From: Shinella sp. H4-D48
GTDB lineage: Bacteria > Pseudomonadota > Alphaproteobacteria > Rhizobiales > Rhizobiaceae
Length of the DNA stretch: 64,000 bases
Reading direction: 5' to 3'
NCBI RefSeq assembly: GCF_022637395.1
Contig: NZ_CP093337.1
Location: 2,650,001-2,714,000, forward strand
In this document: piece by piece, positions 16,129 through 22,597 of the stretch
How the letters are laid out: every line of letters begins with the position of its first letter
Numbering within the stretch: position 1 is the stretch's first letter
Notes under the pieces: generated by a model
The model's database searches: none
Seen by the model: only the letters and a program-made list of their open reading frames with translations
What the model was told of the DNA's origin: nothing
Translations under genes and position numbers: made by a program

Positions 16129-16791
16129 ATGAGCAAGAAACTTCTTACCTCCGTTGCCGCTGGTGCACTTTTCCTTGGCGCAGCCCTGGCTCCTGCGGCA
16201 TATGCACAGGACACCAACCAGCCCGCAGCCGGCCAGACGATGGAACAGCCCGGCATGACCAACGATGACGCCACGGGCACCACCCCCGGCGACACCGCTG
16301 CGACACCGGGTGCAACGACTGACCAGAACATGGCCGAAACGCCGGCTACCGCGACCGAAGATACGGCCCAGGCTCCGGCAGCTGCCGGTGGTGACTATCT
16401 GACGGCCCAGTCCGACCAGCAGATCAGCGCCAACACCTATATCGGCCAGGCTGTCTACAACAGCGCCGATGAAAGTATCGGCAAGATTTCCGACCTGATC
16501 ATGGAAAAGAGCGGCGGTATTGACGCTGCGGTGATCGGCGTCGGCGGCTTCCTGGGCATCGGCGAAAAGTGGGTTGCCGTTCCGTTCGAAAAGATCGCGA
16601 TTACGCAGGTCCCGGATTCGGACGACGTCAAGCTGACCACGACCGAAACAGCAGAAAGCCTGCAGGCAGCGCCGGAATTCAAGACCAAGGCGCAGCAGGT
16701 CTCCGAGCGTCAGGCCAACCAGCCGGTCGACAATTCGACCACGTCGTCGACCTCGGGCACGCTGCCCACCACGACCCAGCCGGCTGAATAA
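16129..16791 (+). CDS. Secreted PRC-barrel domain protein
   Basis: The 220-residue protein has a signal peptide (about 1-26, cleavage after AYA-Q) and a Pro/Thr/Ala/Gln-rich low-complexity linker (about 27-95). A PRC-barrel domain (about 100-175) includes YIGQAVYNSADESIGKISDL and GIGEKWVAVPFEKI, and the tail is disordered and Ser/Thr-rich. PRC-barrel proteins in this group are often under general stress control, which fits the promoter upstream. Molecular role unknown. Confidence 0.82.
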   Translation: MSKKLLTSVAAGALFLGAALAPAAYAQDTNQPAAGQTMEQPGMTNDDATGTTPGDTAATPGATTDQNMAETPATATEDTAQAPAAAGGDYLTAQSDQQISANTYIGQAVYNSADESIGKISDLIMEKSGGIDAAVIGVGGFLGIGEKWVAVPFEKIAITQVPDSDDVKLTTTETAESLQAAPEFKTKAQQVSERQANQPVDNSTTSSTSGTLPTTTQPAE

Positions 16792-16813
16792 GCCTCAGGC
16801 TGAACGACACAAG

Positions 16814-16843
16814 CCCGGTGGCCTTGAGCCACCGGGTTTTTTT
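16814..16843 (+). terminator. Terminator after the PRC-barrel gene
   Basis: CCCGGTGGC (16814-16822) and GCCACCGGG (16828-16836) form a 9-bp stem followed by seven T. Strong intrinsic terminator for the plus strand. Confidence 0.92.
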
Positions 16844-16861
16844 GTCCGCAAAAATGGCGCG

Positions 16862-17197
16862 TCAGCGGCGCAGGACCGGACGCACCTCCTCGTGGAAGAA
16901 ACGGAAATAGGAGGTGATCTGTGCAAGCGCGTTGGTCGACAGTTTGTACTGGATTCCCAGCCGCCCGTTTGAATACCAGCGCACTGTGCCGCTGAGACGA
17001 CCAAGCTCCTCGCTTTCGACCGTCACGAGCTGCCCTGGCATGACCTGAATGGGCTTTTCGATATCGAAGGCCATGCCGCTGGCCGACAGATCGACGACAC
17101 GCGCGCGCGTCGTCTGATGCATGATCTTTACCGTCGCGAAAAGCCGCACGCTGGAACGATTGCTTGCCCGGACGGGCATATCCTTGATGGTCGTCAT
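16862..17197 (-). CDS. PilZ-domain c-di-GMP binding protein
   Basis: The 111-residue single PilZ domain has both ligand motifs: RSSVR (RxxxR, about 13-17) and DLSASG (DxSxxG, about 36-41), and then GTVRWYSNGRLGIQY. It is therefore predicted to bind c-di-GMP. It follows the GGDEF-EAL gene on the same strand with about 96 nt between them. The target process is unknown. Confidence 0.88.
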   Translation of the reverse strand: MTTIKDMPVRASNRSSVRLFATVKIMHQTTRARVVDLSASGMAFDIEKPIQVMPGQLVTVESEELGRLSGTVRWYSNGRLGIQYKLSTNALAQITSYFRFFHEEVRPVLRR

Positions 17198-17293
17198 TCA
17201 GCACACCCCCATCGTTGCCGAGATAAACGCAGGGTAGTGAAAAACCTTTGCCGCCCGGCTAATGGATAGCGTTGAGAATCGGTAAACGTACCC

Positions 17294-18649
17294 TCAAGAT
17301 GCCGCGCGGCCCTCGACGGTTACGTAGCGATCGGCGAGGTAGCGCATCGTCGCAACGGCATCCGCCGGCTTTCCGTAGAAATAGCCCTGCCCCATGCCGC
17401 AGCCGAGCGCCTTCAGCTTCAGCGCCTCGGAGAAATCCTCGATACCTTCGGCAACGACGGCCAGATCAAGGCCCTCGCACATGGTGACAATAGCCTTGAT
17501 GATGTGCTCGGACGCCTTGTCGTTGGAAATACGCGAGACGAAGGCGCGGTCGATCTTCACCTTGTCGAAGGTGAAATCGCGCAGCCGCCCGAGGCTCGAC
17601 TGGCCCGTGCCGAAATCGTCCAGCGAGATGCGAACGCCCGCTGCGCGCAGCTCGCAGACAATCTTCTGGGCCGTATCCGCATCCGTCATGACGGCGGTCT
17701 CTGTGATCTCCAGCTCCAACCGGCGCGGATCGAGCCCCACGCGATTGAGAATCGCCAGCGTGTTGAAGGCGGTCTTCGGGTCCATCAGCTGGGCGGAAGA
17801 GAGGTTGAAGGACAGAAAGAGTTCCTTCGGCCAAGAAAGGGCCGCTTCGGCTGCCTTGCGCAGCAGCGTGTCGGACAGCGCATCAATGAAACCACGTTCC
17901 TCGGCAAGCGGCACGAAGACCGCTGGCGATACATAGCCTAGATCGGCATCGCACCAGCGCGCCAGCGCCTCGAAGCCGACCACCGTATCATCGCGCAGGC
18001 TGACGATCGGCTGGAAATGCACATCAACCTCGTTGGCGATGATGGCGTTGCGCAGCGCCTGTTCAAGCTGCGTCGCCCGTTTCATCTCTTGGGCGATCTC
18101 CTGGGAATAGACCGTGATCTGACCACGGCCGCGACGCTTGGAGCGATAAAGCGCAGTGTCGGCACTTTTCAGGAGTTCGGTAAAGTCTTCACCGGCGAAG
18201 GGATAGATCGCAAAACCGAAGGAAGCGGACAGGCGCACGTTGCGGTCGCCCAGATCGAATGGCGCTGACAGGACCTCGCGCAGCATCTGGCCGATCTTCT
18301 CCGCACCCTTGCGCTCGAAGACCAGAGGCAGCACGAAAGCGAATTCGTCTCCGCCATGGCGCGTGACGGTCGCACCATCCGGGATGCAGGCCCTCAGGCG
18401 ATGGGCGACCTGGCAGAGAATCTCGTCGCCGGCCCGGGGGCCGAACAGATCGTTGATGGGCTTGAAGCCGTCGAGATTGGTGATGCCGATGGCGAACGGC
18501 GCGGGGTCCTCCTCGCGCTCCTTGGCGATCTGGCGAACCTTGTCACGCAGTCGGTAGAGATTGCCCAACCCGGTCAACGGGTCGGTATAGGCCATGGCAT
18601 GGAGGTCAGTCTGGGAAACATCCAGCGCCGCGTGATCAGCAGACTTCAT
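17294..18649 (-). CDS. GGDEF-EAL protein (diguanylate cyclase/phosphodiesterase)
   Basis: The 451-residue cytoplasmic protein has a GGDEF domain (about 18-185, intact HGGDEF) and an EAL domain (about 195-440). The EAL catalytic set is present: FEALARW, NLSSAQL, ELEITET, DDFGTGQSS, KIDRAF, AEGIED and QGYFYG. Both activities are possible. No RxxD inhibitory site precedes GGDEF at the usual spacing. There is no recognisable sensory domain at the short N-terminus, so input may come from partners such as the neighbouring PAS-REC protein. Confidence 0.92.
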   Translation of the reverse strand: MKSADHAALDVSQTDLHAMAYTDPLTGLGNLYRLRDKVRQIAKEREEDPAPFAIGITNLDGFKPINDLFGPRAGDEILCQVAHRLRACIPDGATVTRHGGDEFAFVLPLVFERKGAEKIGQMLREVLSAPFDLGDRNVRLSASFGFAIYPFAGEDFTELLKSADTALYRSKRRGRGQITVYSQEIAQEMKRATQLEQALRNAIIANEVDVHFQPIVSLRDDTVVGFEALARWCDADLGYVSPAVFVPLAEERGFIDALSDTLLRKAAEAALSWPKELFLSFNLSSAQLMDPKTAFNTLAILNRVGLDPRRLELEITETAVMTDADTAQKIVCELRAAGVRISLDDFGTGQSSLGRLRDFTFDKVKIDRAFVSRISNDKASEHIIKAIVTMCEGLDLAVVAEGIEDFSEALKLKALGCGMGQGYFYGKPADAVATMRYLADRYVTVEGRAAS

Positions 18650-18790
18650 TAATGATTACCCGTACTTGCACTCGACCTCCGAAGACTGCTTCACGATGCG
18701 GCATGAGCGTTAACAAATGCATAGCACGCGATCGTCAGTCCTGCCCTCCAGCCTCCCTAAATATGGGGGGTTGACCCGTCCTTTCCTGAT

Positions 18791-20533
18791 CTATGCGACG
18801 GATTTTTCCGAGATCCGGCTGACATAGCGCCGATAGATGGCCTCGATCATGTCGGGGCTTACCGGTTTGGTGATGTAATCGTCCATGCCGGCATCCATGC
18901 ATTTCTGCATGTCGACGTTCAGCGCCTGGGCGGTAACCGCAACGATGGGCGTGCGGGCGCCTGTCAGCTTTTCCGCCTCACGGATCTCCTTTGCCGCATC
19001 AATTCCGTTCATCAGCGGCATGGAAATATCCATCAGCACGAGGCGTGGCTGGTGCTTGCGCCATAGCATGACCGCTTCCTCGCCGTTCTCGGCGATGCGG
19101 TGCGAGACACCCATGCCCTCGAGGATCTGTGAAAAGACGAACTGGTTGATCTGGTTGTCTTCCGCCACCAGCACCTCGACGTCACCGACCGCGCCCGGCA
19201 GCATCGTCGTGATGTCGGTCGCGATATACCAGTCGTCGGCGAATGTTGACGGCGTGACGACGATCTCGCCGAGCGGGGAGGCATCCTCCGACAAAAGCTC
19301 GTGGCTATCAACAAGGGTCCGCATGAAATCGGGGCCGATATCGTCGGGTGTAATGAGGCGCGTTTCAATGCCGTAGTCATTGTCGGCGATGGCCTCGCGC
19401 GCCGGCAGGTTCCTGTCGATGACGATATAGTCGAGGCTCAATCCGCCGGCAGCGGCCGCGGCGAGGAAGGCGTGATGTTCCGGTACGCTGTGGACGGCAC
19501 AGCATTCCGCGCCGCGCGCCTTGAGCGCTGCGACGAGAATATCCTCGATATGCGGATTGGCCGTCACGACAAGCACGCGCTTTCCGGCAATCGTCCGCAA
19601 CTCATCGGCATCCAGTTGGTCGAGCAACAGACGGTGTTCCGCCTCGCGAACGGGATCGAAGCAGTTCTGCGCCTCGATGAAGCCGCCGGTCACCCGCAGG
19701 ACCGCGTCAGTCGAAGCGGGATCGGCAACCCGGTTCTGTGCATAGGCGGTGACGTCCTGCATGACGGTGATGACGACCTGATGCTCGGGAGCCCCGATGC
19801 GGTACTTGTGTGTGATGGTGTAGAGATCGGAACCGTCGGCGCGAATGATGTGCTCGGCAAGGCTGGTCGGTTCGCCGGTCTCCAAGACCGTGCGATCACC
19901 CTGCTCGATCCGTTCGGCGGTTTCCGGATCGGCAAAGGCCCAGGACGAGCGCCCGACGATGGTTTCGGCGCTCGCCCCATAGATCGCGCAGAATGCCTTG
20001 TTCGCCGCGATATAGGTCAGGTTGCGATCCTTGATCACGACCGGGAACGGCAAGGTCTCCAGGATATCCTCGGTTAGCGCGATGCGCTCGAGGTCAAGGC
20101 GCCATTGCTCTTCCTGCTTCTTCTGCTCTGAGACATCGATGAAGGTGCTGACGCTGTAACCGCTCGGAAGGCGGCGCTTGCGGAAATGGATCCAGCGGTC
20201 GCGGCCGACGCGCTCGACGGCGTCGTGCTGTTCGCGCCAGTGGGCGGAAATGCGGGTAGAGATCCATTCCTCGCGGTTGATCGCCTTGTGGCGCTGATCC
20301 GGCGTGATGCCATAACGCATGCCGCTGTCGAAGATTGCGCCCAGCACATCGCGGAGGCGGGTGCCGGGGATAAGCATTTCGACGGGAATGGGAAAGTAGC
20401 GAAGGGCCTGACGGCTGGCGAAAACGAGGCAGTCGTTCTTGTCGTACACGATCACGGCCGCGGCGAGGATATCGCACGCAGCCTCGAACATTCCCAGCCG
20501 GATGTGCGCGTCTGACGGCGCTACATCATTCAT
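18791..20533 (-). CDS. PAS-PAS-pseudoreceiver-receiver protein lacking a kinase domain
   Basis: The 580-residue protein has a PAS-like N-terminus (about 15-140, ending FIDVSEQKKQ) and a second PAS (about 155-275, DILETLPFPVVIKDRN to VMQDVTAYA). A degenerate receiver (about 320-420, with YIVIDRNLP but no acidic pair) precedes an intact receiver (about 451-575: VAEDN, phospho-acceptor Asp near 502 in LVLMDIS, Lys in ITKPVS). No HisKA or HATPase domain is present. Start ATG 20533 has AGGGG upstream. It sits beside GGDEF-EAL and PilZ genes, so a link to c-di-GMP control is plausible. Confidence 0.85.
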   Translation of the reverse strand: MNDVAPSDAHIRLGMFEAACDILAAAVIVYDKNDCLVFASRQALRYFPIPVEMLIPGTRLRDVLGAIFDSGMRYGITPDQRHKAINREEWISTRISAHWREQHDAVERVGRDRWIHFRKRRLPSGYSVSTFIDVSEQKKQEEQWRLDLERIALTEDILETLPFPVVIKDRNLTYIAANKAFCAIYGASAETIVGRSSWAFADPETAERIEQGDRTVLETGEPTSLAEHIIRADGSDLYTITHKYRIGAPEHQVVITVMQDVTAYAQNRVADPASTDAVLRVTGGFIEAQNCFDPVREAEHRLLLDQLDADELRTIAGKRVLVVTANPHIEDILVAALKARGAECCAVHSVPEHHAFLAAAAAGGLSLDYIVIDRNLPAREAIADNDYGIETRLITPDDIGPDFMRTLVDSHELLSEDASPLGEIVVTPSTFADDWYIATDITTMLPGAVGDVEVLVAEDNQINQFVFSQILEGMGVSHRIAENGEEAVMLWRKHQPRLVLMDISMPLMNGIDAAKEIREAEKLTGARTPIVAVTAQALNVDMQKCMDAGMDDYITKPVSPDMIEAIYRRYVSRISEKSVA

Positions 20534-20653
20534 ATTGGCCACCCCTGCCTGTCTGGCATTCCCGCTAACATGCTGATCGGCGCTTCACGCGCTCTTGGAC
20601 ATGGGAATGACAGCGGCCAGCCACGCTGAAATCGTCCGCCGGGCGACCGGCAA

Positions 20654-20671
20654 GCTTGTGCTCATACAAGC
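20654..20671. repeat. Short inverted repeat in the divergent PAS-REC/mutL gap
   Basis: GCTTGT and ACAAGC arms (6 bp each) flank a 6-nt spacer in the 267-nt region between the two divergent genes. Possible operator; no family suggested. The gap also has an AT-rich stretch near 20690-20712. Confidence 0.35.
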
Positions 20672-20800
20672 CAAACAGCACGTTCGCAGCATTTTATTAA
20701 AGCCTGATTAAATCTCGTGAGCGTGCCTTAAGGACGCGCAAGACGGGATAAGCCGCCAAGACCACTGGCGGGGACCGCGCGAATCCGCGAAAATGGCGCC

Positions 20801-22597
20801 ATGACCATCAGGCAGCTTTCCGAAACCCTCATCAACCAGATTGCAGCCGGCGAGGTGATCGAGCGCCCCGCGAGCGCCGCCAAGGAGCTGATCGAGAACG
20901 CGCTGGACGCCGGTGCGACGCGCATCGAGATTGCCACTGCGGGCGGCGGAAAGACGCTGCTGCGCGTTACCGACAATGGCAGCGGCATGGCGCCCGGCGA
21001 GCTGGAACTCGCGATCCGGCGCCACTGCACCTCCAAGCTCGACACGGATCTGCTCGATATCCGCACCCTTGGCTTTCGCGGCGAGGCCTTGCCCTCTATC
21101 GGCTCGGTCGCGCGCCTTTCACTGCTCAGCCGCACGGCGGAGGCCAGCGAGGGCGCCGAAATCAGCGTAACCGGCGGCAAGGTCGAGCCGGTGCGGCCGG
21201 CGGCGGCCAATCGCGGCACCGTGGTGGAGGTGCGTGACCTCTTCTTCGCCACGCCGGCGCGGCTGAAATTCATGAAGAGCGAGAAGGCCGAAGCCTCCGC
21301 CATTTCGGATGTCGTGCGGCGCATGGCCATCGCCTTCCCGCATGTGCGCTTCGTGCTATCAGGCTCCGACCGGACGACGCAGGAATTTCCCGCGACCGGG
21401 ACGGATCGCCTCGCGCGCATAGCGCAGGTGCTCGGCCGGGATTTCCGCGACAATGCCATCGAGATCGACGCGGAGCGGGAGGGCGTGCGGCTGACGGGCT
21501 TTGCGGGCGTGCCGACCTTCAACCGCGGCAACAGCCTGCACCAGTTCGCCTTCGTCAACGGCCGTCCCGTGCAGGACAAGCTTCTCTGGTCGGCGCTGCG
21601 GGCGGCCTATGCGGAAACCATCCCGCACGGGCGCTACCCGGTCGCGGTGCTTTCCATCGAGATCGACCCGGCCCTGGTGGATGTCAATGTGCACCCGGCG
21701 AAATCCGACGTGCGTTTCCGCGATCCGGGGCTGGTGCGCGGGCTTGTCATCGGCGCGATCCGCGAGGCGCTCGGGCGCGAGGGCGACCGGGCGGCCACGA
21801 CCGGCGCCAGCGGCCTGATGCGCGCCTTCCGGCCGGAAGCGCAACGGCCCGCCACGCCCTGGACGCCTGCTGCCTCGCCTTATCGCCCGTTCGAGCCGGC
21901 AGCATCGATGCCGCTGCGCGCGGAGCAGGCCGGCTTTGCCGAATTCGCAACACCGTCTGCGCGCAGCGAGCCGGTCTTTACGGCACAGCAGCCGGTGCCG
22001 GACGACGCGCCGCAGCAGCATCCGCTCGGCGCGGCGCGCGCGCAGCTGCACGAGAACTATATTGTCGCGCAGACGCAGGATGGCCTCGTCATCGTGGACC
22101 AGCACGCAGCGCATGAACGGCTGGTCTTCGAAGCCATGCGCAATGCGCTGCATTCCCGCGCCGTGCCCGCGCAGGCGCTGCTCATCCCCGAGATCATCGA
22201 TCTGCCGGAAGACGATTGCGATCGGCTGGTGGCCCATGCCGAAGAGTTCGCGACACTCGGGCTCGGCATCGACCGCTTCGGACCGGGCGCGATTGCAGTG
22301 CGCGAAACGCCCGCCATGCTCGGCGAGATGGATGCGGCCGGCCTCATCCGTCAGCTGGCGGACGAACTTGCCGAATGGGACACGGCAAACGGCCTCAAGG
22401 CAAAACTCGAATATCTCGCCGCGACCATGGCGTGCCACGGCTCGGTGCGCTCCGGGCGGCGCATGCGGCCCGAAGAGATGAACGCGCTGCTGCGGCAGAT
22501 GGAGGCGACACCCGGCTCCGGCCAGTGCAATCACGGCCGACCGACCTATATCGAACTGAAGCTGTCGGATATCGAGCGTCTTTTCGGACGCAGCTGA
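20801..22597 (+). CDS. mutL: DNA mismatch repair protein MutL
   Basis: Mismatch repair ATPase and latent endonuclease. The 598-residue protein has the GHKL N-terminal motifs [28 protein letters not shown] and DNGSGM, then [10 protein letters not shown], a Pro/Ala-rich linker (about 330-400), and a C-terminal domain. That domain carries the endonuclease motif [12 protein letters not shown] (DQHAx2Ex4E) and the metal-site block [10 protein letters not shown]. The intact motif fits a genome using MutL, not MutH, for nicking. Confidence 0.96.

Follow-up and report, generated by a model that had tools for sequence, protein, structure and literature searches.

A 580-aa Shinella protein that joins two PAS domains to one degenerate and one intact receiver and has no histidine kinase core belongs, by sequence comparison, to a conserved family of kinase-less sensor proteins found among rhizobia and related bacteria. 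Its gene (positions 18791–20533, minus strand, of the 64-kb window, by which we mean the whole stretch of DNA analysed) is paired with a gene for a GGDEF-EAL protein and preceded by a CtrA-type box, both of them conserved, and the protein has kept its phosphorylation residues and is kin to hybrid kinases. Our preferred explanation, offered tentatively and at a little less than even chances, is that the protein acts in trans as a sensing and phospho-accepting subunit of a sensor-less GGDEF-EAL phosphodiesterase and is expressed under CtrA. The CtrA-type box, the hybrid-kinase kinship, and the loss of the switch threonine in most orthologues are additions to the first-pass annotation of this DNA.

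The open reading frame extends from 18791 to 20542 on the minus strand and opens with a GTG; starting at the ATG at 20533 gives the 580-aa product, and the translation, the Pfam matches and 80 named orthologues all agree with this gene. Pfam places a PAS_7 domain at residues 24–142 (20108–20464, minus strand; E 2.1e-12) and a PAS_4 domain at residues 158–263 (19745–20062, minus strand; E 2.3e-19), the two being joined by a helix at residues 135–160 in the AlphaFold2 secondary structure. A pseudo-receiver follows at residues 319–417 (19283–19579, minus strand), recognised from AlphaFold2, fold comparison and the residues present over 113 orthologues, and then a Response_reg receiver at residues 454–565 (18839–19174, minus strand; Pfam E 2.1e-28) with Asp502 as its predicted phospho-acceptor, which compares with solved receivers at VIA Z 19.1–21.1. 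This receiver ends at residue 565 of 580, and neither Pfam nor AlphaFold2 finds an output domain after it. The full-length AlphaFold2 model contains two PAS folds, the pseudo-receiver and a full receiver, with residues 411–449 as a low-confidence stretch; the packing of the domains is not trustworthy because the pTM is 0.39 and the mean pLDDT 78. An arrangement of this kind without a kinase core, with a degenerate and an intact receiver behind the sensor domains, had been proposed in the first-pass annotation, and it is confirmed by Pfam, AlphaFold2, fold comparison, and the named loci; since it recurs in 80 of 80 of these, it is not a product of chance.

The annotation had also suggested a domain search for a concealed kinase, and that search returned neither HisKA nor HATPase in the 580-aa protein (Pfam, E up to 1) or in any of 46 orthologues (Pfam, E up to 0.1). 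In tblastn (E 1e-5), the kinase core of the hybrid kinase encoded in the same genome, discussed below, matches the PAS-receiver reading frame in none of the 80 loci, and for the HisKA family, which has 33 matches in the whole genome, none falls inside the interval of the window. A hidden kinase is ruled out by the Pfam results on 1 + 46 sequences, the lack of a core match in 80 loci, and the shortness of the linker.

As modelled, residues 319–417 are a receiver fold without the full set of phosphorylation residues. The AlphaFold2 models show a beta-alpha fold with four strands, in which beta5 and its lysine are missing, and the acidic pair is absent from nearly all of the 113 orthologues, with Asp373 kept in 108 of them. 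Folded alone, the segment reaches a pLDDT of 72, and 47 of the 50 VIA rows listed for this isolated model belong to response regulators or receiver domains (Z 9.2–11.2), the other three (28tm, 8wiw, and 6oec) having titles that name neither. The Response_reg profile detects 2 of 46 pseudo-receiver segments, the better at E 0.0092. Foldseek with the lone domain gives nothing under E 0.001 (best E 3.4e-3), and a call by Foldseek alone was dropped.

The closest named record, at 94% over the N-terminal part, is from Shinella sumterensis. Search patterns from the PAS part found 86 named loci, of which we used the best 80; these carry the titles Shinella, Rhizobium, Ensifer, Sinorhizobium, Pararhizobium, or 'Rhizobiales bacterium'. 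Every one of the 80 has a PAS-receiver reading frame of 555–581 aa that diverges from mutL and has the GGDEF-EAL gene after it. The divergent neighbour in the window (20801–22597, plus strand), which we take to be mutL from its sequence, is matched in all 80 and marks the conserved locus; the GGDEF-EAL gene (17294–18649, minus strand; 451 aa, domains by Pfam) is downstream on the same strand in all 80, and its match starts 45–335 nt away in 79 and 1,320 nt away in one. A gap of about 1.3 kb separates the two genes in the Shinella locus L045, where an insertion is possible.

Among 151 genomes of the family, the PAS-receiver protein is present in 33 (E 1e-50) and the GGDEF-EAL orthologue in 98 (E 1e-120). 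All 33 genomes with the protein also have the enzyme, a co-occurrence whose weight is reduced by the high base rate of the enzyme (98/151) and by the relatedness of the genomes. The enzyme occurs with no match to the protein (E 1e-50) in 65 of its 98 genomes, one of which, G142, has a diverged PAS-receiver copy beside the enzyme. We examined the slot upstream of the enzyme in 83 of the 98 genomes (the loci left out being 13, mostly with low scores, and two of Shinella); it holds a PAS-receiver reading frame in 31, a hybrid kinase in three and a short receiver reading frame in one, while in G132 the protein is encoded nearby but non-adjacently, about 5 kb from the enzyme gene and convergent with it. 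The other 47 have none of these, a count in which some loci may be blind, as several of the 83 stretches end at contig ends. The three hybrid kinases (L150:2003-6530, L189, and L190, from two genera) are full-length histidine kinases directly upstream of the GGDEF-EAL orthologue, that of L150 being confirmed by Pfam, and the short reading frame (L219) encodes a 182-aa receiver-domain protein 116 nt upstream of it. In L167, where the genes are non-adjacent, a 764-aa frame after the PAS-receiver protein matches no Pfam family.

The first-pass annotation had drawn both the GGDEF-EAL gene and a PilZ gene into a link with this protein. The former holds, with conservation in 80 of 80 loci and 33 of 33 genomes. 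The latter does not, and PilZ is ruled out as part of the unit: the PilZ gene that follows the pair (16862–17197) has matches in 13 of the 80 loci (6-kb flanks), all of them Shinella.

Pfam finds no sensor domain in the 451-aa GGDEF-EAL protein; alphaproteobacterial proteins of this type themselves most often bear PAS_3/4/7/9 or MHYT domains (PMC9756655; this and the other papers given here by PMC number are drawn on in excerpt). The gene matches at 77–99% identity in the 80 named loci. Its EAL motif is intact in 79 (one has EGL), DDFGTG is present in all 80, and the other EAL catalytic motifs are conserved. In most loci the GGDEF motif has changed, with HDGDEF in 58, whereas HGGDEF stands in 16 and is kept in the window and in 13 of 13 Shinella loci. 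Because EAL is intact while GGDEF is altered in most loci, the partner enzyme is most likely a phosphodiesterase, and the combination suggests one with a regulatory GGDEF domain. Between the window and 67 non-Shinella loci, the enzyme has a mean identity of 79.5%, as compared with 54.9% for PAS_7, 44.6% for PAS_4, 54.5% for the C-terminal receiver, 25.8% for the pseudo-receiver, and 11.9% for the linker.

Within its own genome, the PAS-receiver protein has its best full-length relative in a hybrid kinase of 1223 aa (L031:1042-4713). The two are alike in their PAS_7/PAS_4 domains and two C-terminal receivers, with 27% identity over the PAS pair and 52% over the receiver, but the kinase has HisKA, HATPase, and further PAS domains. 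We compared 67 receivers over 115 columns, including 21 hand-picked from the 113 target rows and 40 of the 59 other receivers in the genome, one of which (the paralogue) was entered as a hybrid kinase. In the resulting tree, the 21 target and seven hybrid-kinase receivers stand apart from 39 other receivers of the genome with support of 95, and the nearest non-hybrid receiver is the DivK-like L250 of the same genome (support 97), taken as DivK by its place beside a PleD-like gene. The order inside the hybrid-kinase group is unsure because there are 115 columns and many open forks, and the target rows alone have support of 68. Since its receiver groups with those of multi-PAS hybrid kinases, the protein is probably a kinase-less relative of such an enzyme, and the simplest reading of its origin is that a hybrid kinase of this type lost its kinase core and some of its PAS domains. 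Homology to DivK is ruled out as the best label, the receiver being nearer in the tree to hybrid-kinase receivers. The hybrid kinase itself (E 1e-130; best five candidates per genome scored, with partial matches in G049 and G151) occurs in 23 of the 33 genomes with the PAS-receiver protein and in 58 of the 118 without it, at a base rate of 81/151. The case for it as an obligate partner is weakened by the 10 of 33 genomes that have no match at this threshold.

In the C-terminal receiver, E458, D459, D502, and K556 are kept in all 113 orthologues, a set comprising the window, the 80 named loci, and 32 family loci, whose rows are not independent and in which some genomes are probably present twice under different ids (for example L071/G065 and L119/G163). 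With its E/D, D, and K residues in place, this domain is a predicted phospho-acceptor. The Shinella protein itself has all four together with Thr534 and Tyr553, but the switch Thr534 is kept in only 32 of the 113 orthologues and replaced in 81, mostly by leucine (71), and Tyr553 is kept in 23 and replaced in 90; at the switch position, 39 of 40 other receivers examined in the genome (of 59) have a threonine or serine. An ordinary phospho-switch is therefore unlikely in most of the lineages sampled. A receiver that may accept phosphate but has no switch residue brings to mind the passive type reported among intermediary receivers (PMC9981736), although those retain the Ser/Thr.

These residue patterns can also be accommodated if the protein acts as a phosphate sink or kinase decoy that takes phosphate from a kinase or sits on it and so lowers its output, with the phosphodiesterase merely co-expressed; the target would be a multi-PAS hybrid kinase, or a kinase of the CckA/DivJ type, and the protein would work much as Osp and FixT do. 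The lost threonine fits, because a passive acceptor can do without a switch, and so does the retention of the phospho-acceptor residues in 113 of 113 orthologues even though the threonine is lost in 81. The grouping of the receiver with hybrid kinases and the 27% identity of the PAS pair point the same way, the hybrid kinase is somewhat commoner where the protein is present, and there is a precedent in Osp of Rhodobacter sphaeroides, a receiver-like, CtrA-activated inhibitor of CckA (PMC9430884). Osp and FixT resemble the protein in being of receiver type without a kinase, but they are single-domain proteins that lack a PAS pair and bind a kinase, with no c-di-GMP enzyme partner described in the excerpts of that paper. 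We consider a sink or decoy unlikely, as in ten genomes with the protein none of the five candidates scored matches the hybrid kinase at E 1e-130 and the pairing with the GGDEF-EAL gene is left unexplained.

The CtrA consensus is TTAA-N7-TTAA (PMC9437464, PMC11527210), and its sole copy in the window (20697–20711, no strand assigned) is upstream of the PAS-receiver gene, in the intergenic region common to it and the divergent mutL. A perfect box lies within 230 nt upstream in 71 of the 80 named loci, against 0.2 expected from shuffles, and within 400 nt in five more, for 76 of 80 in all; the last four have a box with one mismatch. The boxes beyond 230 nt or with one mismatch were sought in the nine otherwise box-less loci only, and those with one mismatch come without a chance estimate. 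The 76 boxes fall in 32 kb of upstream sequence, and there are none in the other 985 kb of the named loci. Family loci show the same association, with a box upstream of the PAS-receiver gene in 30 of 32, versus none of 51 upstream of the enzyme where the protein is absent, and none was found upstream of the three neighbouring hybrid kinases or of the hybrid kinase in the Shinella genome. That genome (4.77 Mb) contains 41 boxes versus 24 for the reversed pattern, so most boxes genome-wide may be chance and it is the conservation at the PAS-receiver locus that counts. As an alternative CtrA motif, TTAACCAT occurs within 230 nt in 0 of 80 loci, and no sigma-70-type promoter was found in 16600–21000, where 1.3 are expected by chance. 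From the predicted box we infer that the PAS-receiver operon is under CtrA control.

If so, the two genes might be no more than a shared CtrA-regulated transcript, with the PAS-receiver protein serving another pathway, as could be argued from the frequency of the enzyme without the protein and from the way in which the box follows the protein and not the enzyme. The recurrence of a receiver-bearing protein ahead of the enzyme in three different architectures argues against this, and we regard mere co-expression as distinctly improbable.

The counterpart of this module in S. meliloti is probably SMc00888-SMc00887, the match of the locus tags being suggested by order and box, as both the gene order of the module and a perfect CtrA-type box are found in L058, the locus of S. 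meliloti 4H41. In PMC4414408, SMc00888 is a receiver protein, called a DivK homologue, that shares with SMc00887 an operon of unknown function preceded by CtrA- and DnaA-type motifs; the two genes have been likened to pleD-divK (PMC4414408, PMC11500502), and SMc00888 is reported to be regulated by CbrA and CtrA, with a possible role in c-di-GMP (PMC11500502). Its expression in a cbrA mutant is given as decreased in the text of PMC11500502 and as increased in a figure legend. The excerpts of these two papers do not mention the PAS pair, the pseudo-receiver, or the missing kinase. The tags SMc00888 and SMc00887 were found in PMC4414408 and PMC11500502 only, and literature on SMc00889, 00890, 00891, 00893, and 00894 was not found, so the identity of SMc00888 is not tied to mutL in print. 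Among titles and abstract openings on kinase-less PAS-receiver proteins, or on receivers acting in trans on GGDEF-EAL proteins, there is no account of the module. The likeness to PleD and DivK is that receiver and GGDEF functions are encoded together. PleD has receivers and GGDEF in one chain; DivK is unlike the present protein in being a single receiver (38% identity).

PMC4414408 cites a drop in SMc00887 and SMc00888 transcripts in a podJ polarity mutant, which might indicate a scaffold or localisation factor that uses its PAS and receiver domains to bring the phosphodiesterase, and perhaps kinases, to a cell pole, with phosphorylation vestigial. The pseudo-receiver (26%) and linker (12%) do diverge fast relative to the receiver (54.5%), as expected of non-catalytic parts. 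However, a transcript change is not localisation, and since all 113 orthologues retain E/D/D/K, phosphorylation would seem to matter; we think a scaffold quite unlikely.

We therefore return to the trans-acting sensor and phospho-acceptor subunit, which we prefer because, of all the functional clues, the pairing with the enzyme is strongest: every one of the 33 genomes with the protein has the enzyme (base rate 98/151), as against 23 that have the hybrid kinase (base rate 81/151). Encoded beside the enzyme and behind a likely cell-cycle control site, the protein probably steers the phosphodiesterase. CtrA would drive the operon, as the box suggests and as the CtrA regulation of SMc00888 reported in S. 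meliloti would lead one to expect; the PAS pair would sense an internal signal; a histidine kinase or phosphotransfer protein would phosphorylate Asp502; and the protein would bind the phosphodiesterase, whose activity or place would thereby be altered. The main point against the trans-acting reading, insofar as an ordinary phospho-switch is meant, is the loss of the switch threonine in most orthologues. It also has to contend with the 65 of 98 genomes that have the enzyme without the protein, with the non-adjacent genes of G132, and with the consideration that co-transcription can mean shared timing only.

A more elaborate version, which we think quite unlikely, is a split c-di-GMP sensor, in which a hybrid kinase that lost its core became the PAS-receiver subunit of a phosphodiesterase under CtrA, with feedback through CckA. 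In vitro, c-di-GMP turns S. meliloti CckA towards phosphatase activity (PMC11500502), and for this reason a CtrA-driven phosphodiesterase would protect the kinase activity of CckA, so that a positive feedback could arise, with the PAS signal as its gate. The receiver would have to work without the usual threonine switch in most of the Rhizobium sampled.

With these results, what has been loosely named a 'DivK homologue' becomes a defined and widespread two-gene module, which ties together CtrA cell-cycle control, a probable kinase-less relative of hybrid kinases, and c-di-GMP breakdown, elements that are rarely joined by sequence alone. It allows two questions to be tested directly: whether a GGDEF-EAL enzyme can be governed in trans by a receiver protein separate from it, and what role may be played by a receiver in which the phosphorylation site is kept and the switch residue lost.
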